Part shown: piece after piece, positions 25,135 through 33,417 of the stretch
Position numbering within the stretch: the first letter of the stretch is position 1
How the letters are laid out: every line of letters begins with the position of its first letter
Assembly (NCBI RefSeq): GCF_007747995.1
Contig: NZ_CP036276.1
Span: 2,099,001-2,163,000 of the forward strand
Length of the DNA stretch: 64,000 nt
Origin: Symmachiella dynata
Lineage (GTDB): Bacteria; Planctomycetota; Planctomycetia; Planctomycetales; Planctomycetaceae
Direction of reading: 5' to 3'
Notes under the pieces: model-generated
The model's input: only the letters and a program-made list of their open reading frames with translations
What the model was told of the DNA's origin: nothing
Databases searched by the model: none
Position numbers and translations under genes: made by a program

Positions 25135-25224
25135 CACAGCCGTAGATGGGGATGAAAGCTCGTTGCTGTGATACAACCAAGTTTGATTTCACGCAACAAT
25201 TTGGTCCTATCAGGAGCAACGAGC

Positions 25225-26238
25225 ATGTCCAGTTTATCGTTTTTTGTCGGACTCGACTACCACCAGTCGTTCATTCAGGTCTGCGTGTTGGATCGCGAGG
25301 GCAATGTGTTGGCTAACCTCAAATCGCCGAACAGTGCGGAGCATGTCGCCTTACTGGTGCGCGGGGTGGTTCCCAAATCCGCACGGGTCTTCGTCGCCCT
25401 CGAAGCTTGTACCGGAGCAGCCAACTTTGCTGAAGAATTGGTCCGCCACACGGGTTGGTCCGTCGATCTGGCCCATGCCGGCTACGTCGCCAAACTCAAA
25501 CAAAGCCCCGACAAAACCGATTTCAGCGACGCGCGTTTGTTGGCAGACCTGGAACGTGTGGGGTACCTTCCGCGGGTCTGGATGCCACCGGAGTCGTTGC
25601 GGGATCTGCGGAGGCTGGTGCGGTATCGTCAACAGTTGGCCGCCGCGCGGCGAAACGTCAAGTTGCGGATCACGGCTCTGCTTCGCGAGGAACGTATCGT
25701 CGCAGAGCAACGCCGCTGGACCAAAGCGTGGCAGCACTGGCTGGCCGGGCTAGACGAAATCTCGCCTCAGATGCGGTGGGTGATGGACCAGCATCTAGAG
25801 GCGCTGCAGCGATTGGAACGGGAGATCCGCGCAGCCGAAGCACGTCTCTGCGCGGCGACCTGCGATGATGCGATCGTCCAAAAACTGTTGGAGATCAAAG
25901 GTGTGGGCTTGGTGACGGCTGTGACGTTGCGTGCGGAAATCGGCCGGTTCGACCGCTTTCGTACGGGGAAACAGTTGGCTCGTTTTTGCGGCATGACTCC
26001 GCGAAATGCCTCCAGCGGAAACCGCCAGGCGGACGCCGGTTTGATCAAGGCGGGGAATCCGGAATTGCGGCGTGTGATCATCGAGACCGCCCATCGCCTG
26101 GGCCGTTACGACCTGCGTCTGTCGAAGATGAACACGCGTTTGCGTCGACGCGGCAAGCCGGGCAGCGTGGTGGCGGCGGCGATCGGCAACCGTTGGATGC
26201 GTTGGTTGTACCATCAAATGAAAACCATTTCCGTTTAA
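25225..26238 (+). CDS. IS110-family transposase
   Basis: A 337-residue DEDD-type transposase. The N-terminal RuvC-like domain has VGLDYHQ (first Asp), ALEAC and KTDFSDARLLADL. The C-terminal Transposase_20 domain has LLEIKGVGLVTAVTLRAEIG, then RFCGMTPRNASSGNR and AGNPELRRVIIETAHRL with the presumed catalytic Ser region. Length is normal, so the gene looks intact. The ATG at 25225 has CAGGAG upstream. IS110 enzymes are recombinases guided by a structured bridge RNA encoded in the element's non-coding end. Confidence 0.95.
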   Translation: MSSLSFFVGLDYHQSFIQVCVLDREGNVLANLKSPNSAEHVALLVRGVVPKSARVFVALEACTGAANFAEELVRHTGWSVDLAHAGYVAKLKQSPDKTDFSDARLLADLERVGYLPRVWMPPESLRDLRRLVRYRQQLAAARRNVKLRITALLREERIVAEQRRWTKAWQHWLAGLDEISPQMRWVMDQHLEALQRLEREIRAAEARLCAATCDDAIVQKLLEIKGVGLVTAVTLRAEIGRFDRFRTGKQLARFCGMTPRNASSGNRQADAGLIKAGNPELRRVIIETAHRLGRYDLRLSKMNTRLRRRGKPGSVVAAAIGNRWMRWLYHQMKTISV

Positions 26239-26615: not shown

Positions 26616-26688
26616 AGGTCAGGCAGCCGCCTGACGCGAACCACGTTGGACGATCATTTTCACTTGCCGTCAGGCGGCTGTCTGACCT
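26616..26688. repeat. Large inverted repeat at the 3' end of the btuF-like gene
   Basis: Two 21-base arms (26616-26636 and 26668-26688), 20 of 21 complementary, around a 31-base loop. Each arm is itself partly palindromic (CAGGC/GCCTG). The right arm abuts the stop codon of the btuF-like gene; on its transcript the structure would lie directly 3' of the coding region, as an end or stabiliser hairpin. Confidence 0.8.
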
Positions 26689-27616
26689 ACGCGTCTTCGA
26701 GTTGTTGCCAACCGCTGCCGGCGTGGCCGAAATCGAATGTGTCTGGATGCAAAATCTCGGCGAATATCTCCGCCGATTCCACCAGCCGGGGACCGGGGCG
26801 ATTGAAATATTGGTTTCCGTCGGTCACATAAACGCGACCGTTTTGCACGGCTTGTAATTGCGACCATTGTGGTTTATCCGTGAGCACCGGCATTTCTTCA
26901 CGGGCGCGGGGGATATCGAAACCACAGGGCAGAATGGCGATCACCTCAGGATCGGCTTGGAAGAGTTCCTCCCATGTCATCCAGGGCGAATGCTCACCGG
27001 CTGTGCCAAACAGATTCGTGCCGCCGGCAATCGTCACTAACTCCGGCACCCAGTTTCCCGCCGCCATCAACGGGTCGATCCATTCGATGCAGGCGATGGT
27101 TGGTTTGTGCGGCAACGACGTCGTGCGGCTTTCCAGGTCCGCCAAACGCTGCTGCGCGCTGGCAATCAATTCCTCACCCTGCTGCGGTACATCGATCGCA
27201 GTCGCCACGGCGCGGATGTCGCTCCAAACATCTTTGAGCCAGTTCGGTTCCAAGGCGACAATATTTGGCTGCGACGAGACCATCTCACAGACAGCCGCCT
27301 CGACATCCTTGAGACTGACCGCGCAGACTTCGCATTGTGTCTGCGTGATGACAACGCTGGGTTGCAGTTCCTCCAGCATCTCGGGAAACACACGATACAC
27401 CGAAACCGCATCCCGCAGAATCGCCTTCACACGATCATCAATCTGCCGACTCGTGCCATTGACATCCAGTTTGGCTTCGCTGCAAGCGGGGAGCTGCTCG
27501 ACCGCGGGTGGATAATCGCATTCGTGCGAACGTCCGACCAACCGGTTCTCGCAACCCAGTGCCGCCACAATTTCCGTCGCACTGGCGATCAGTGAAATGA
27601 TGCGATGTTCAGGCAT
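26687..27616 (-). CDS. BtuF-like cobalamin-binding protein without a signal peptide
   Basis: A 309-residue protein of the periplasmic-binding (Peripla_BP_2) fold: RIISLIASATEIVAALGCENRLVGRSHECDYP, then VVITQTQCEVCAVS and VYVTDGNQYFNRPGPRLVESAE, as in BtuF and cytosolic 'cobalamin-binding' relatives. The ATG at 27616 gives no signal peptide, and the longer frame to 27709 adds none. It is 10 bases downstream of the hydrolase gene and last in the cobalamin-riboswitch gene run. It may bind corrinoid in the cytoplasm rather than deliver it to a BtuCD transporter, which is absent here. Confidence 0.8.
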   Translation of the reverse strand: MPEHRIISLIASATEIVAALGCENRLVGRSHECDYPPAVEQLPACSEAKLDVNGTSRQIDDRVKAILRDAVSVYRVFPEMLEELQPSVVITQTQCEVCAVSLKDVEAAVCEMVSSQPNIVALEPNWLKDVWSDIRAVATAIDVPQQGEELIASAQQRLADLESRTTSLPHKPTIACIEWIDPLMAAGNWVPELVTIAGGTNLFGTAGEHSPWMTWEELFQADPEVIAILPCGFDIPRAREEMPVLTDKPQWSQLQAVQNGRVYVTDGNQYFNRPGPRLVESAEIFAEILHPDTFDFGHAGSGWQQLEDA

Positions 27617-27626
27617 GATCAAGTTA

Positions 27627-28697
27627 TCACTTGGCGTTTGGTGGGGGATCATTTTTTGCTTGTTCGACAACACGAAGGATAGCATCGATGACGACGTCAG
27701 GCCGATCATTCTGGATGAAATGTCCGGCGTCCTCTAAGGTTTGGTGTTTTGACTGAGTCGACCGACTTGCGAGATCGCGTTGAAGCTTCTCCCAGATTTG
27801 GCTGATTTCCATGGGGTCAGCCTCGCCAGTCGTTTCCATTGGCTTTCCCGCACTGAGCACCTCGAGCGGGAGGTCGCCCCAAGGAATCGCCGCATCCGCG
27901 GTTTGCCGCATACTTGTCAGTAGTGCCGCCATTTCCTTTGCAACCGCAGTCAATTGAGAGTGCCGAGCGGAGAGTGCCGTCTGTGTGTTTCGGATTGATT
28001 TCGGAATGTTGCTGTCATCGTTTTCCTCATCGCTGTCCAACAGACGGACCAATCCGAATCGGGCGGTCTGGCTGAACAAATCCAGCATCTCCTGGACCTG
28101 CTCAAATTGCTCGCGCACGGCGGGTGGGAATGTTTCCCATTGCTCTTCGTGGGAGGAATCAACCAGCACAATCCCTTTCACCTCTTCGGGGTAGCGGTAC
28201 GAGAACATGCGAACGTGCACTCCACCAATTGAGTGGCCGACCAATACCAACGGTCCTGTGATTCCCCGTGCCTGCAACGCCGCATGCAGGTCTTGCACCA
28301 CAGCATCCGAGTCGCGTGGTGCCGGGGCTGGATCGCTCCAACCCAATCCCGCGCGGTCGTAGGTGATCACCTGTGTCGATTTAGCAACTTCCGCTGCAAC
28401 GTGGTGCCAACTGAGACTGAATTCGCCCAGACCAGCTTCGAAAATCACCGTCGGCGAGCCATGCCCCTGCACGTGCATATGAATCTGTCTGCCCTCGACG
28501 TCCACCAATTCGCCCGGTGGCGGATAGTCCGTTGCGATGCGTGCCAACGCAAATTGCTCGTACACAAACCCAGCGAACATCAACAGCGCAACAAACAGCA
28601 CTGTCAACGCGAGTCCCCACTTCGCCAGGCGCATTAAGCGACGAGGTTTCGGCTGCGCCGGCCCGCCGTGCGTGTCGTGTGGGGTGGGTTGTGTCAT
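27627..28697 (-). CDS. Membrane-anchored alpha/beta hydrolase
   Basis: A 356-residue protein with an N-terminal anchor (residues about 25-50, WGLALTVLFVALLMFAGFVY) and an alpha/beta hydrolase domain: oxyanion FEAGLGEFSLSW, nucleophile elbow GHSIGG, and C-terminal His in EDAGHFIQNDRP. Substrate is unknown. It is 125 bases downstream of the DUF6580 gene and 10 bases upstream of the btuF-like gene, so at least the last pair is co-transcribed. A role in corrinoid processing is possible only by context. Confidence 0.82.
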   Translation of the reverse strand: MTQPTPHDTHGGPAQPKPRRLMRLAKWGLALTVLFVALLMFAGFVYEQFALARIATDYPPPGELVDVEGRQIHMHVQGHGSPTVIFEAGLGEFSLSWHHVAAEVAKSTQVITYDRAGLGWSDPAPAPRDSDAVVQDLHAALQARGITGPLVLVGHSIGGVHVRMFSYRYPEEVKGIVLVDSSHEEQWETFPPAVREQFEQVQEMLDLFSQTARFGLVRLLDSDEENDDSNIPKSIRNTQTALSARHSQLTAVAKEMAALLTSMRQTADAAIPWGDLPLEVLSAGKPMETTGEADPMEISQIWEKLQRDLASRSTQSKHQTLEDAGHFIQNDRPDVVIDAILRVVEQAKNDPPPNAK

Positions 28698-28822
28698 GAA
28701 ACGCGCTATCGGCTAAAACGGGTCGTGACAAGCATGCTACCGGCGACGATTCTTAAGGTAAAGACGAACCGCCGCGGTGGCAATTGCCGGAAACATGCAA
28801 GACGCTTGAATGAATGGCGGTC

Positions 28823-29479
28823 CTAGTTTTCTTTGGAAAGCGTGTTAGCGGTCGGTTGCGTCAGGATCAGTTGAACCACCGCGAACGCCCCGAAAAACAG
28901 CGTGGTATAAAACGCATCACCGATGACCGTTGGACGTAAAAACGGTAAACCGGCGACGTAACATTGGATCAATCCGGCCAACGTATGCGGATACGTCGTG
29001 TACATCATCCACATGCCGAAATTTGTAATCAGATAAAATAACAACGATCCGCCCAGCGTTGCTATGCACAGGGGAAACCCACGGCCCGCCGCACGTTTCC
29101 AGGCCGGTTGCGGTTCGGATTCGGAATGCTCCCAATGAGCACGGACCCTATGCCCCAACAAAACGTACAGCACATAAGACCCGTAGACGAACGGGATGAC
29201 GCTGTGAAACGTGTAGGTCATCACATCACCTCGCATCAGTCCCCAAGTGATGTCGCTGAGCAGCATGGCGGAGAGTGGAACGGCAATCGCCCAACGCGAC
29301 CGGCTGAAATACACTCCGGTAAATAAGGCGATTCCCCCCACCGGCGTGAGGTTCCAAGGTTGGCCCAACCATCGCAACAGGGCGGGGAAAACGATGACCG
29401 CCGCCAGCAACCAATAGTTGATTTTGGCAGGGGTGTCGGATGATTCCCTGTGTGGATGACTATTTTGATCTGCGTTCAT
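28823..29479 (-). CDS. DUF6580-type integral membrane protein, candidate corrinoid transporter
   Basis: A 218-residue protein with about five or six transmembrane segments. The opening NYWLLAAVIVFPALLRWLGQPWNLTPVGGIALFTGVYF and the following SRWAIAVPLSAMLLSDITWGL have the feel of ECF-transporter S-components, and I recall this family as DUF6580, a putative transport protein. Its start codon overlaps the end of the upstream ATPase gene by four bases, so the two are translationally coupled. Placement behind a cobalamin riboswitch suggests corrinoid (or precursor) uptake. No ECF energising subunits are nearby. Confidence 0.7.
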   Translation of the reverse strand: MNADQNSHPHRESSDTPAKINYWLLAAVIVFPALLRWLGQPWNLTPVGGIALFTGVYFSRSRWAIAVPLSAMLLSDITWGLMRGDVMTYTFHSVIPFVYGSYVLYVLLGHRVRAHWEHSESEPQPAWKRAAGRGFPLCIATLGGSLLFYLITNFGMWMMYTTYPHTLAGLIQCYVAGLPFLRPTVIGDAFYTTLFFGAFAVVQLILTQPTANTLSKEN

Positions 29480-30141
29480 TGTGGGTTCAATTCACAAAAT
29501 AGAAAGTTGTCGCGGTCGATGACTTCGCCGCGTGAAAAACTAACGGGTTCTCGAAATAACGGACCGTCGAATACGAATGAGTGGAATTCCCCATTCTCTC
29601 CGCAGGGGTCGACACCCTCGGGGAGAGCATTCAGAAACTCGTCGTCGATGATTCGACCCGCAAAGGAGGCATCAAGTTTTCGTGGATCAACACACGTGGT
29701 GATGGCGCGGTAACCCAAATCAATAAATGTGCGGACAAGTTCGGGCGTCGATCGCTGCCACAAAGGGAAAAGACATTTCAAAGCATGCGCCGCTAACTGT
29801 CGCTCACGATACTCCTTGAGGTCTTGCAGAAAAATATCGCCAAAGGCAATGGTGTCGATTTCGCTTTGGACGGCTTCGTCCCAGGCATGTTCCATGGCGG
29901 ATTCATATTCGTCGTTGTCGGCCTGTGGCGAAATGGCGACTTCCATCAGTGGGATTTCCAGCGCAGCCGCCTGGCGGTGTAACAACTCGCGGCGGACACC
30001 ATGCATGCTGATGCGGTCGTATCCGGCGGTGATGGTCGTGATCAGTTTCACAACGTCCCATTCCCCGGCGGACTTCAGTTCGTGCAGCATCATCAAGCTA
30101 TCCTTGCCGCCGCTAAAACAGACGTAAATCGACACGGACAT
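29476..30141 (-). CDS. PP-loop ATPase of the diphthine-ammonia ligase family
   Basis: A 221-residue adenine-nucleotide alpha-hydrolase with the PP-loop SGGKDS at residues 10-15 and the family segments MHGVRRELLHRQAAALEIPL, IAFGDIFLQDLKEYRE and the C-terminal DPCGENGEFHSFVFDGPLF (GENGEFHT-like motif of Diphthami_syn_2). Archaeal and eukaryotic relatives amidate diphthine on EF-2. Bacteria have no diphthamide, so the substrate here must differ. It is coupled by a four-base overlap to the DUF6580 gene, under a cobalamin riboswitch, which suggests ATP-dependent amidation or activation of a corrinoid. Confidence 0.85.
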   Translation of the reverse strand: MSVSIYVCFSGGKDSLMMLHELKSAGEWDVVKLITTITAGYDRISMHGVRRELLHRQAAALEIPLMEVAISPQADNDEYESAMEHAWDEAVQSEIDTIAFGDIFLQDLKEYRERQLAAHALKCLFPLWQRSTPELVRTFIDLGYRAITTCVDPRKLDASFAGRIIDDEFLNALPEGVDPCGENGEFHSFVFDGPLFREPVSFSRGEVIDRDNFLFCELNPQ

Positions 30142-30173
30142 GAATTCAGTTCTCGTTGCAAGCTTTCAAGGCG

Positions 30174-30509
30174 TTACTCCGGCAGCGGGCCTTGTTCCTG
30201 CATCGCCAGCTTGTGCTTTGGACAGAGATAACCCGCAACCGGGCCGTTGTGTACATTCGGTGGCGGCACGACGTACCAGTGCTGGCATCGTGAACAATAC
30301 AGTGCCCGTTGCAGCGTCGCCCGGCCCGTGTCCGGATTGACGGCCGGGACCGGTTGCGGTGGGGCGGAAACATACTCGCCGGTTTCAGAGCAACGATAGA
30401 CAACATCGACCTGTTCGTCGGTGCGCGGTCCATCGGAACAGCCCGGTGCGAAGAGCATGGTTAGCGTAAACAATGGCAACATGACAGCCACGGATTTTAA
30501 GTGTGACAA
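30174..30509 (-). CDS. Small Cys-rich lipoprotein
   Basis: A 111-residue protein with a lipoprotein signal ending LFAPGC. The mature part contains YRCSETGEYV, YCSRCQHW and LCPKH, together a plausible zinc ribbon. The start is a TTG at 30509, chosen because AGGAGG lies five bases upstream; an internal ATG nine codons later is possible. It is second in the riboswitch-headed run, 32 bases before the PP-loop ATPase. Function unknown. Confidence 0.75.
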   Translation of the reverse strand: MSHLKSVAVMLPLFTLTMLFAPGCSDGPRTDEQVDVVYRCSETGEYVSAPPQPVPAVNPDTGRATLQRALYCSRCQHWYVVPPPNVHNGPVAGYLCPKHKLAMQEQGPLPE

Positions 30510-30610
30510 TACGACCTCCTGTCAGAAAAAATAGTGCAGGGAATAGCGAAGGACAAACCGCGCCGCCCAAGTGGCGCGCAGTTCTCTTTTTTCAGAGTTG
30601 GCCCGCTTCG

Positions 30611-31654
30611 CTATTCGCGGTCGTACAGCGCATCGTCGGGACCAATGAAACCAAGTTCATGGTCTTGATTGGCCTGAACATCGGCGGGCGAAAACCACAC
30701 CGGCAATTGAATGAAATCAGGCGTCTTCATATCCACATGCCCGTCCAAGAACGCTACGACGGCTGCGCCGTTATGCCGAAAGTGCGCCGAGGGCTGTGTC
30801 TTGCTCGGTGGCTCCAGCAACCAGTTCTCTAGAAATGTACCGGTGGGGTAGGTCCACGTGTTGTAAATCGCGCTGTCAGCAAATGCGATCGTTTGCGTCA
30901 TTTGTCGGACCGCATTGAACCGGTAGGCCATGGGCTCGGAGCTGACTGTGATCGTCGGCCAACTCCCATAATCGTAGTCCGTCCCTTTGCCGAGATAGTG
31001 CCCATTGTAGGCATACCCGCTGGCCATTTGCCCGAAACGAACCACGTCCACATGGGACTCATCGAAGTTGGGACATTGAAACACCGAGCGATTGGTTTCC
31101 AAATAGGGGCCCAATGTCGCGGTCTGAAATTCAAATTGTGTCTTAGGGTCGGGGTTCGCGAAATCAACCGTGCCGAACCAAAAATTCGTCGTCCCCCGCA
31201 CACTGGCTGCGCCGGTTTGATAGGCGATTTCCTGCGCATCATCGATGCGATAAGGCGGCATCATTTCGCCATAGACATCCGCATAATTATGCACCGCCAG
31301 CACCAGTTGTTTGAGGCGACTGCGACACTGCGTCCGCCGCGCCGCTTCACGGGCTTGCTGCACAGCCGGCAGCAGCAGCGCTACCAAAATTGCAATAATG
31401 GCAATCACCACCAGCAATTCAATCAGTGTAAAACCACGGCGTTGTTCGCTGGAACGCGGCACAGTCACAGCAGGGTGCCACTGGCGGCTTGTCCGCCAGT
31501 GCGTTGGACCGTTGTGGCAAGGTCGGAAGGCCTTGCCACCTTCCCGACCGCAGGTCTCCACAGTGCGGGGTCGGGAGACCCGCGCACAACCAAGCCGGGA
31601 AACCCGCGCACCACCAAGCTGGCAATCTTGATCAGAATTCTTCTTCAAACTCAT
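30611..31654 (-). CDS. DUF1559 pseudopilin-like protein with an abnormal leader
   Basis: A 347-residue protein of the DUF1559 family: type IV pilin-like N-terminus [34 protein letters not shown], then the family's beta-rich domain with C-terminal [16 protein letters not shown]. The pilin-like Gly is residue 74 if the ATG at 31654 is used, although prepilin leaders are usually 6-25 residues. Residues about 13-62 are translated repeat sequence. In-frame GTG codons at 31468 or 31462 would give leaders of 12 or 10 residues. It is the first gene after the cobalamin riboswitch. Confidence 0.88.
31473..31503. repeat. Dispersed palindrome, family C copy 2, inside the DUF1559 leader
   Basis: GGGTGCCACTGGCGGCTTG with CCGCCAGTG. 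A second hairpin (GGCAAGG/CCTTGCC, about 31516-31540) and GGTCGGGAGACC-like words follow up to about 31618. The block keeps the reading frame open. Confidence 0.8.
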
Positions 31655-31861
31655 GACAATACCTCGTTGTCAAACGTAGCCGCGCAGAGCGCGCAGCTTC
31701 ATCGCGAACGCCTTAAAACGAGGAAAAACAGCGGCGCAATTAGCCGAGACCTGGGGCGCGGAAATAATCCCGGATGGGGGGACGCGCAGCAGAATATCGT
31801 GCGTGGTCGCGGCGCAACGTCTTTTTCCTCGAAAGAGCCGTTCGCAAAAAAAACGACGACT

Positions 31862-32025
31862 GGGCAGGTCTTCTGGCTCTCGGATCGCACTACTGACTGC
31901 ACCTTCCCGCGGCATCCCGTGCCAACAGTGGTTTGTTGCAGCGTTCGTCCCCGATTACAGCGGCGGGACCGCAACGGATTTGCACCGTTTTCCCTATTCT
32001 TCTCCCGAACACCAAGTTACGAGAG
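31862..32025 (-). promoter_or_regulatory. Cobalamin (B12) riboswitch
   Basis: Read on the minus strand the conserved elements come in the right order: AGGGAAaACGGTGCAAATCCGT (31974-31996), GCGGTCCCGCCGCTGTAATC (31953-31972), CCACTG (31926-31931), GGGAAGG, and the B12 box GAGCCAGAAGACCTGC (31864-31879). These are the hallmarks of the adenosylcobalamin-type aptamer. The eight-U run at 31846-31853 just 3' of it may belong to a termination-type expression platform. It lies about 208 bases upstream of the DUF1559 start and is co-directional with the six-gene run down to 26687. Confidence 0.95.
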
Positions 32026-32195
32026 ACACCCAGGTCTTGTGGCACGTCCAGAGACCAACGCCTCCCAACGTGCGGAGTCCATCCTACCAATGCCAATTCG
32101 GTTGTCAATGGCTCGCCGAAACCGGCAGACCGGGTGGCTGGAGACATCGCACCAGCGATGCCCCCAGGTGATTGCGTAGTCATTGCGCACAGAAA

Positions 32196-32255: not shown

Positions 32256-33080
32256 TTAATGACTGGTCGACAATGGCGCTGCATGTGACAGCATCGGTGG
32301 TCGCGGCGTTCCGCGTGAATTGCGCCATAAAAACAACCCGCAAATCGCAAACGGAAGCATGGGAAACAAAATCCGTCCCAGCAGATGCCGGCTCGTCGCA
32401 AACGAAATCGTATCCGCCTCTGATTCCGCTGTAGACGCATTTGTCTGCCAGGGTGGAAAACCCATATCGGCGGAGAGTTGTCCGTTGCCCGGCTGCGTGG
32501 GTAAAGCCATATCCAATTGATACATAGCGGCAACCAATGTCACGATCAATCCGGCGGCCAACATCCACTTAGGGCCTCGTGCTGTACGTTGTGCCATCCA
32601 GCAGAGTAAGCAGGTCGTCAGCACGAACGGCGCCGCCGCCCACACATAGAATGCCGTTTCCATCAACAACAGCGTCGTCGCCGAGACCGTCGATTTGGTG
32701 AGTCCTTGCGGTCCTTCATTGAATTCCTCAAGCAACTCGGCCGTGCCCACAAACACCAACAGGCACAGTATCCAACTCAACACCAACATCGGCAACGGTG
32801 CGATGAGAAACGTCAAAATCGGATGACGTCCCAGCCACGTCCGTCGACGATATTCATCGCCCGCGGCTTGGGCCAACTGTTCCGGTTTCCCGATCCGCTC
32901 CACCGGAGCATCGGGTATCTTAGTCGCTTTCGTTTTTGTCGCGTCCATGACGTTCGTCTCCTCCTTGAGACATAGCGCGTGATCGAGCAGCTCATCCATA
33001 AGCCGCTCGGTATAAAGCCGCGGCAAGCCTTGCCGGGCGAGTTCTCGTTGTAGTTGGTTATGCCAATTCCGGTCGACCAT
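32256..33080 (-). CDS. Multi-pass membrane protein with an N-terminal HAAS-like region, paired with PadR
   Basis: A 274-residue protein. Residues 1-60 are a soluble helical segment (WHNQLQRELARQGLPRLYTERLMDELLDHALCLKEE) like the HAAS/DUF1700-type domains found next to PadR regulators. About four or five transmembrane helices follow (FLIAPLPMLVLSWILCLLVFV, FYVWAAAPFVLTTCLLCWM, MLAAGLIVTLVAAMYQ, ILFPMLPFAICGLFLW). The start ATG at 33080 overlaps the padR gene by 23 bases, so they form an operon. Its role may be sensing or membrane stress; substrate unknown. Confidence 0.72.
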   Translation of the reverse strand: MVDRNWHNQLQRELARQGLPRLYTERLMDELLDHALCLKEETNVMDATKTKATKIPDAPVERIGKPEQLAQAAGDEYRRRTWLGRHPILTFLIAPLPMLVLSWILCLLVFVGTAELLEEFNEGPQGLTKSTVSATTLLLMETAFYVWAAAPFVLTTCLLCWMAQRTARGPKWMLAAGLIVTLVAAMYQLDMALPTQPGNGQLSADMGFPPWQTNASTAESEADTISFATSRHLLGRILFPMLPFAICGLFLWRNSRGTPRPPMLSHAAPLSTSH

Positions 33081-33417
33081 GCGTCGCGCCCTCCAACACA
33101 CCGCCGATGGCTGCCACTATCCGCCGCCAATGTGCCTCAGAAGCCGCCATGCGTTTTTTGCCTGCAGCCGAGGTGCGATACGTCACCCGTTTGCGGCCTC
33201 CAACGACGCTCTTTTCGCAGGTCAGCAGCTTTTGCGCTTCCAGCTTATGCAGCAGTGGATAGATACAACCTTCGCCAAATTCCAAAACCTGGTCGGTCGA
33301 CTGTTTGATTTCCTGCACGATCTCATAACCGTACATACTCCGTCGCGACAACAGTCGCAAAATGAGTAGTTCCGGCACACCGTTGAGAAAGTCAGGATTG
33401 GTTCGTTTGCGTGTCAT
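33058..33417 (-). CDS. PadR-family transcriptional regulator
   Basis: A 119-residue winged-helix repressor. PELLILRLLSRRSMYGYEIVQEI is the PadR signature, followed by EFGEGCIYPLLHKLEAQKLL and the wing KRVTYRTSAAGKK. The ATG at 33417 fits the family; the frame extends upstream through non-coding repeat sequence. It overlaps the membrane-protein gene and probably represses its own operon. Confidence 0.92.
   Translation of the reverse strand: MTRKRTNPDFLNGVPELLILRLLSRRSMYGYEIVQEIKQSTDQVLEFGEGCIYPLLHKLEAQKLLTCEKSVVGGRKRVTYRTSAAGKKRMAASEAHWRRIVAAIGGVLEGATHGRPELA

Follow-up and report, generated by a model that had tools for sequence, protein, structure and literature searches.

The 64,000-nucleotide stretch of the Symmachiella dynata genome considered here (the window; C1:2099001-2163000 of a single contig of 7,767,809 bases) carries on its minus strand a cobalamin riboswitch, followed in turn by genes for a DUF1559 protein, a small Cys-rich predicted lipoprotein, a DUF71 PP-loop ATPase, a DUF6580 membrane protein, an alpha/beta hydrolase and a BtuF-like protein (Table 1). 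All six open reading frames (ORFs) are present on that strand, and Pfam agrees with the families that a first-pass annotation had assigned them, the lipoprotein being without a Pfam match. The aptamer is complete, as that annotation had held: the RF00174 match covers the full model (1-189), scores above the gathering threshold and is the only one in the genome, and it starts 23 nucleotides beyond the end coordinate given earlier. Both tight junctions are also as described—the DUF71 and DUF6580 genes overlap, and a gap of 10 nucleotides (27617-27626) precedes the BtuF-like gene if the latter starts at 27616, that is, at residue 32 of its longest ORF (MPEHRIISL). Judging from this spacing, and from the conserved order of the genes, the module is presumably transcribed as one unit.

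Table 1. Positions of the riboswitch, the promoter-like site and the genes of the module in the window
Feature	Position	Strand	Basis and remarks
Promoter-like site, TTGACA-16-TAGGAT	32081..32108	(-)	consensus scan, 10/12; just upstream of aptamer; alone no evidence of function
Cobalamin riboswitch aptamer, RF00174	31846..32048	(-)	Infernal/Rfam, 113.6 bits; gathering score 31.5; E = 1e-27
DUF1559 pseudopilin-like protein, riboswitch-linked subfamily	30611-31654	(-)	PF07596 and PF07963; proposed surface B12 capture protein
Small Cys-rich predicted lipoprotein	30174-30509	(-)	YCxxCxxW...PP...CP motif; no Pfam match
DUF71/Diphthami_syn_2 PP-loop ATPase	29476-30141	(-)	PF01902, 114.6 bits; DUF71-B12 type by context
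DUF6580 membrane protein	28823-29479	(-)	PF20221, 161 bits; proposed BtuM-like inner-membrane B12 importer
Alpha/beta hydrolase	27627-28697	(-)	PF00561; inserted within genus, outside conserved module
BtuF-like protein	26687-27616 (longest ORF to 27709)	(-)	PF01497, 81 bits

B12 is too large for ordinary porins. The module had been described as one without BtuB or BtuCD, and this is true of the whole genome at the thresholds used: PF00593, the profile by which the beta-barrel of BtuB or another TonB receptor would be recognized, gave no match at E up to 0.001, and PF01032 (FecCD) gave two neighboring weak ones at 848-850 kb, whose 43.2 and 28.8 bits compare with more than 250 for the strong FecCD group to which a BtuCDF-type permease would belong. 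The B12-dependent methionine synthase MetH is present, and the organism therefore uses B12. We consider the module to be, probably, a B12-repressed operon for B12 import in a B12-dependent planctomycete. More particularly, and with a probability of about one half, we read it as a TonB-independent planctomycete route for B12 in which a riboswitch-controlled DUF1559 protein takes the part of BtuB (in capture or in passage), DUF6580 that of a BtuM-like importer, and the BtuF-like protein that of a cytoplasmic acceptor. The question on which this bears is how B12 enters bacteria that have neither BtuB nor BtuCD, and it supplies two candidates, DUF6580 and a defined subfamily of DUF1559.

Among 79 genomes of relatives, the window's own included, DUF1559 is the most constant target of the riboswitch and alternates in this role with the TonB receptor, two points that the first-pass annotation had missed. 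The RF00174 search, run with stricter filters under which weak matches were lost, found 109 riboswitches in 74 of these genomes and none in five; 108 of the 109 lie in fetched loci, and the remaining one, in G016, is below the gathering score and was classified from coordinates only. The first gene after each riboswitch—the first, that is, to be recognized by profiles of the window's proteins or by FecCD and TonB matches, so that others may lie between—is DUF1559 in 66 cases in which the gene ends within 1.7 kb (a 67th lies at 2.2 kb), a TonB receptor in 11 (12 with G016), DUF6580 in eight, FecCD in two and DUF71 in one; 19 riboswitches, one of them cut by the contig end, have none of the profiled genes first. 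As a control, the 1.7 kb upstream of 105 riboswitches were examined on both strands, and DUF1559 was found there in 8 cases. Counted by genome, the riboswitch precedes DUF1559 in 62 of the 74 and a TonB receptor in 12 (p = 3.4e-11), with both targets in a single genome (G044, which has two riboswitches) and neither in another (G014, whose riboswitch is 82 bases from the contig end).

The surface part is not tied to a particular importer. DUF1559 follows the riboswitch in all 11 of the FecCD genomes that lack DUF6580, and DUF6580 is present in 11 of the 12 genomes in which the riboswitch precedes a TonB receptor. Either surface part can thus be combined with either importer; the outer and inner layers therefore exchange independently, and this independence would place DUF1559 in the outer layer. 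The same position is suggested by loci in which riboswitch, TonB receptor, DUF71 and DUF6580 follow one another in that order, as they do in Acidobacterial L230 and L232, in Blastocatellia L257 (where the receptor is represented by its plug domain only) and in Rhizobium L291.

The window's DUF1559 protein has the make-up of a pseudopilin, with a prepilin motif (PF07963, 33.8 bits) and PF07596 (52.7-53.6 bits), and among the members of its family it is divergent, the match being confined to positions 1-102. When 65 of the 66 riboswitch-linked copies (one without the trimming motif was left out) were placed in a tree with 28 own paralogs from 30 loci, 46 of the 65, the window copy included, formed one paralog-free clade with support 1.0. 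In four planctomycetes (G002, G057, G060 and G077) the riboswitch-linked DUF1559 gene is followed by one for a DUF4465 protein, a member of the family of BtuJ, the cobalamin binder of Bacteroides (PMC12751083). Like BtuG, BtuH and BtuJ of Bacteroides, DUF1559 would be an extracellular B12 capture protein of a B12-regulated operon; those proteins are partnered with BtuB, whereas DUF1559 is of pseudopilin type, and no TonB receptor exceeds the cut-off in 50 of the 62 genomes in which DUF1559 follows the riboswitch. The DUF4465 proteins (L125, L141, L145 and L152) have a PEP-CTERM match that is over the cut-off in two cases and just below it in one; a fifth member of the cluster (G062, L135) was outside the set tested with Pfam.

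From these genomic patterns it seems rather likely that DUF1559 stands in functionally for BtuB at the cell surface, and less so that it carries out the actual passage of B12 across the outer membrane. Several points tell against even the first proposition. DUF1559 is a large paralog family, with 66 PF07596 matches in the window's genome; 19 of the 65 riboswitch-linked copies fall outside the main clade, and so must reflect either repeated recruitment or a different function of those copies; in two of the six loci of other phyla that were tested, riboswitch and DUF71 flank a gene for something other than a TonB receptor (it has TSP3 repeats in L231 and no Pfam match in L243); AlphaFold, given three sequences, returned a failed model with a predicted local distance difference test score (pLDDT) of 36.8; and no outer-membrane pore for the passage of B12 was identified. 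The size of the family and the scatter of its riboswitch-linked copies, together with the prepilin motif, would also suit a DUF1559 that lies outside uptake, a surface or pilus protein for attachment or sensing that is merely regulated by B12. We regard this as somewhat unlikely, in view of its near-perfect exclusion with the riboswitch-linked TonB receptor (both in 1 of 74 genomes), its occupation of the operon position that the receptor holds in Acidobacteria, and the company of DUF4465 proteins in four genomes.

If DUF1559 does replace BtuB, a physiological function will have been found for a member of the family that forms the most numerous paralog group in one planctomycete that has been studied. 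In Planctopirus limnophila that group has 68 DUF1559 members; their function is unknown, and two are reported to be essential (PMC10632474). DUF1559 is presented in PMC10632474 and PMC2754498 only as a large family whose function is unknown or solute-binding. The riboswitch provides a testable entry to the family. In the literature searched, which did not cover subscription journals or preprints, no role in B12 uptake was found for DUF1559 or DUF6580, and the name DUF6580 was absent.

At the inner membrane a second alternation is seen, between DUF6580 and the FecCD permeases. DUF6580 (PF20221) is present in 67 of the 79 relatives, its 77 match rows amounting to 76 loci once the second piece of a frame in G078 is dropped, and strong FecCD (PF01032 above 250 bits, the next best being 52) is present in 14. 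Three genomes have both, 64 have DUF6580 alone, 11 have FecCD alone and one has neither (Fisher p = 4.6e-10, a value that, like our others, ignores the relatedness of the genomes). G012, which lacks both, has a completeness of 79%; G003, G052 and G072, which carry both, have tandem FecCD pairs, which may be of the siderophore type. A second sample comprised 195 genomes drawn from the phylum, including at least 18 that also belong to the set of 79; with a FecCD cut-off of E up to 1e-30, FecCD is found in 5 of the 22 genomes with DUF6580 versus 142 of the 173 without it (p = 3.9e-8).

The neighbors of DUF6580 point to B12 as well. Among the 76 loci, 28 have a riboswitch less than 6 kb upstream on their own strand, for which chance would allow about 0.0006 per locus; in G034 the riboswitch is followed by DUF6580, CobT, CobS and a phosphatase, and in G062 by DUF6580 and MetE. 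Further afield, when one genome was scanned for each species, at least 583 candidates emerged, and the best 80 of these, the named loci, belong to Acidobacteria, Bacteroidota, Lysobacter, Thermomonas, Omnitrophota, the candidate phyla radiation and others; within these best 80, 18 have DUF71 and 16 a BtuF-like gene. Mechanical selection from loci not titled planctomycete gave 115 neighboring ORFs, 114 of which were aligned and scanned: 15 are DUF71, 12 TonB receptors, 11 PduO-type corrinoid adenosyltransferases, seven DUF4430, five BtuF and two CobA/CobO, the largest other family being GatB, with five. RF00174 was found in nine of ten named loci scanned with Rfam, which had been chosen for carrying DUF71 (all ten) and BtuF. 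DUF71 and DUF6580, often accompanied by a BtuF-like gene, therefore stand under cobalamin riboswitches in Acidobacteria, Rokubacteria, Verrucomicrobia and Proteobacteria too, and the inner-membrane core of the module is not specific to planctomycetes, contrary to what had been supposed. DUF6580 also occurs in genomes of the candidate phyla radiation (Levybacteria, Woesebacteria, Woykebacteria and Roizmanbacteria; L241, L251, L262, L278, L296 and L303), which are unexpected carriers of a vitamin importer.

The fold of DUF6580 agrees with its context. An AlphaFold (AF2) model built from 81 sequences has a pLDDT of 87.8, and Foldseek places first, among entries of the PDB, 8c7p, which is BtuM with cyanocobalamin (probability 1.00; template-modeling (TM) score 0.58 by query and 0.68 by target; E = 0.013). 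A chain of CcmABCD is second (TM 0.29) and an ECF-PanT entry third, and further S-components of energy-coupling factor (ECF) transporters are at ranks 7, 11 and 17, so that the model suggests an S-component fold of the kind that BtuM has. Nearly fixed in the family are Arg36, Asn43, Asp76, Tyr99, Asn153 and Trp157, the last two lying in the motif used for retrieval, where conservation in the alignment is biased. BtuM is the solitary B12 transporter of proteobacteria (PMC6072759). DUF6580 resembles it in being a small membrane protein, in having BtuM as its best structural match, in lying beside TonB receptors in some loci and in occurring mostly in genomes without strong FecCD. On the absence of an ECF module the picture is mixed, 29 of the 67 DUF6580 genomes having no match to CbiQ/EcfT and the window's genome having one. 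DUF6580 differs from BtuM in that no PDB chain was found to resemble it in sequence, in lacking the invariant Cys (Cys80 in T. denitrificans), in belonging to Pfam family PF20221 and in frequently having a BtuF-like protein and DUF71 as companions. By its predicted fold DUF6580 would thus act like BtuM, and yet by sequence it is no member of that family.

Because FecCD complementarity, BtuM-like fold and B12-related neighbors all agree, the proposal of the first-pass annotation that DUF6580 substitutes for the usual transporter, here that of the inner membrane, is supported, and we think it very probable that DUF6580 is a BtuM-like importer of corrinoids. The evidence on the other side is of several kinds. 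The fold match has an E of 0.013, with nothing at E up to 0.001 and a CcmABCD chain in second place; two profiles found no PDB chain similar in sequence at E up to 10, in a set that presumably contains the BtuM entries; and the best Cys column, Cys173, is occupied in 63 of 81 sequences, so that the essential Cys of BtuM has no invariant counterpart. Strict exclusion is contradicted by G152, G198 and G207, three of the five genomes of the phylum sample that have DUF6580 together with FecCD, which lie outside the window's class; PF01032 also covers siderophore permeases, a riboswitch is followed within about 8 kb by strong FecCD in G051, G058 and G073 only, and the relatedness ignored by the p-values must be reckoned with here too. 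Finally, riboswitch, BtuF-like gene, DUF71 and DUF4430 are all missing from the vicinity of DUF6580 in 31 of the 76 loci, six of these being on stretches under 8.1 kb.

An S-component fold would equally allow DUF6580 to work, not alone, but with the EcfT/ATPase module of an ECF transporter, and the one CbiQ/EcfT match in the window's genome, which also counts against a solitary importer, might supply the partner. That match is at 6.29 Mb, however, far from the module at 2.13 Mb, and 29 of the 67 DUF6580 genomes have no CbiQ match; an ECF module is therefore no general requirement, and we judge such a partnership unlikely. The CbiQ profile, it should be said, matched in the Escherichia coli control also, although E. 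coli has no ECF module according to PMC6072759.

The BtuF-like protein is probably without a signal peptide and cytoplasmic—a further point absent from the first-pass annotation. Among 31 homologues in DUF6580 genomes in which the first strand could be recognized, 20, that of the congener G002 (MSSHRVISLIASATE) included, have 11 residues or fewer of open frame before this strand; the other 11 have longer frames, most of them of low hydrophobicity. Separate BtuF proteins in seven Acidobacterial-type loci do have a hydrophobic leader, with a maximum 14-residue hydropathy of 1.9-3.1. A difficulty is that the window's own ORF could start 31 residues upstream, at 27709, as in the congener G001, and so run into the hydrolase gene. 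The optional leaders of these two ORFs have hydropathies of 1.6 and 1.9, near to or level with the weakest true BtuF leaders, and the case for the window's protein rests, therefore, on its relatives. The protein may be a corrinoid acceptor in the cytoplasm, and as such would fit the idea of facilitated diffusion plus trapping that has been stated for BtuM (PMC6072759).

DUF71 is found in 27 of the 79 genomes, and all 27 have DUF6580. Its proximity to B12 transport genes recalls the DUF71-B12 salvage clusters (PMC3541065), with the difference that DUF71 is accompanied there by BtuCDF or CbiB, and here by DUF6580 without CbiB. This constant association with DUF6580, and the occurrence in G034 of DUF6580 with CobT and CobS, could be taken to mean that the module salvages or remodels corrinoids, with DUF71 as a CbiZ-like amidohydrolase feeding CbiB and the hydrolase performing a further step. 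The idea is close to one that the first-pass annotation had entertained, and to that of de Crecy-Lagard 2012 (PMC3541065), in which a CbiZ-like role was considered for DUF71-B12. CbiB gave no match in the window's genome, however, and is present in only 2 of the 79, neither of them with DUF71; a CbiZ-like DUF71 would thus be without its partner, and remodeling through CbiB was rejected. Nor does the hydrolase help: among 116 loci, only those of the window's genome (G000) and of G001 have it inside the module, that of G002 being without it, and the homologues in three other loci lie over 2.5 kb away from the riboswitch or DUF6580. The B12-related step that had been proposed for it was set aside for this reason, and salvage or remodeling as a whole appears quite improbable. 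What survives of the earlier interpretation is a corrinoid uptake module in which DUF6580 replaces the usual transporter.

Some S-components do take other ligands, and B12 as the substrate is something that we infer, but that B12 should be the signal only, and another tetrapyrrole or cobalt the cargo, is very improbable given the planctomycete neighbors CobT, CobS and MetE, the corrinoid adenosyltransferases and TonB receptors that adjoin DUF6580 in other phyla, and the replacement of FecCD permeases by DUF6580.

Put together, the import route that we favor would operate as follows. When B12 is scarce the riboswitch would permit expression of the operon. DUF1559, with a prepilin-type anchor and an outward-facing domain, would capture the corrinoid outside the cell or in the envelope, perhaps aided by the Cys-rich lipoprotein, and would occupy the position held in other genomes by the TonB-dependent BtuB. 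DUF6580 would move the corrinoid inward across the inner membrane without a permease of the ATP-binding cassette kind, and the BtuF-like protein, joined by DUF71 in some lineages, would receive and retain it in the cytoplasm, this trapping driving net uptake. The route would share with BtuB-BtuCDF its control by a cobalamin riboswitch, a BtuF-related protein and the overall task; it differs in having no TonB receptor or strong FecCD match, and in a BtuF-like protein that is probably made without a signal peptide. As a combination it represents a variant of B12 uptake that is new, and the DUF1559 part, if shown, would be new in kind.

In the fetched loci, 24 ORFs are homologous to the Cys-rich lipoprotein, and 21 of these follow a riboswitch. 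The window's genome has a second DUF6580 gene (L062:6019-7040, at about 1,612,500-1,613,530), which overlaps by 4 nucleotides a preceding gene for DUF4430, a domain that we take to be transcobalamin-like. A DUF4430-like group adjoins DUF6580 in eight planctomycete loci, and the four that were tested with Pfam are all DUF4430. The family invites comparison with the transcobalamin-like beta-grasp proteins (PMC1796856), and is absent from the module in the window. A MerR-type regulator with B12-binding domains is encoded at about 1.604 Mb (L311:1420-2310), roughly 9 kb away from this second DUF6580 gene.

Little can be added about the leader. That an intrinsic terminator should, as a rule, directly follow the aptamer was considered and rejected: of 108 riboswitches, five have at least five consecutive T near the end of the aptamer (1.4% in the control), and three of the five are those of the window's genome, G001 and G002. 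Folding of the leader RNA is no more stable than that of shuffled sequences, and promoter-like sites overall are not above shuffles either, with four found and 3.3 expected. Upstream of the module the Pfam match of a TctB-like gene (32256-33101) is under its cut-off. One genus (G058, G062 and G073) has four to seven cobalamin riboswitches per genome, many of them before genes not identified here (L129, L134, L135, L190, L191, L200, L201, L208, L211 and L216). Just downstream of the module, on the opposite strand, the window carries an IS110-family transposase gene (25168-26238, plus strand).

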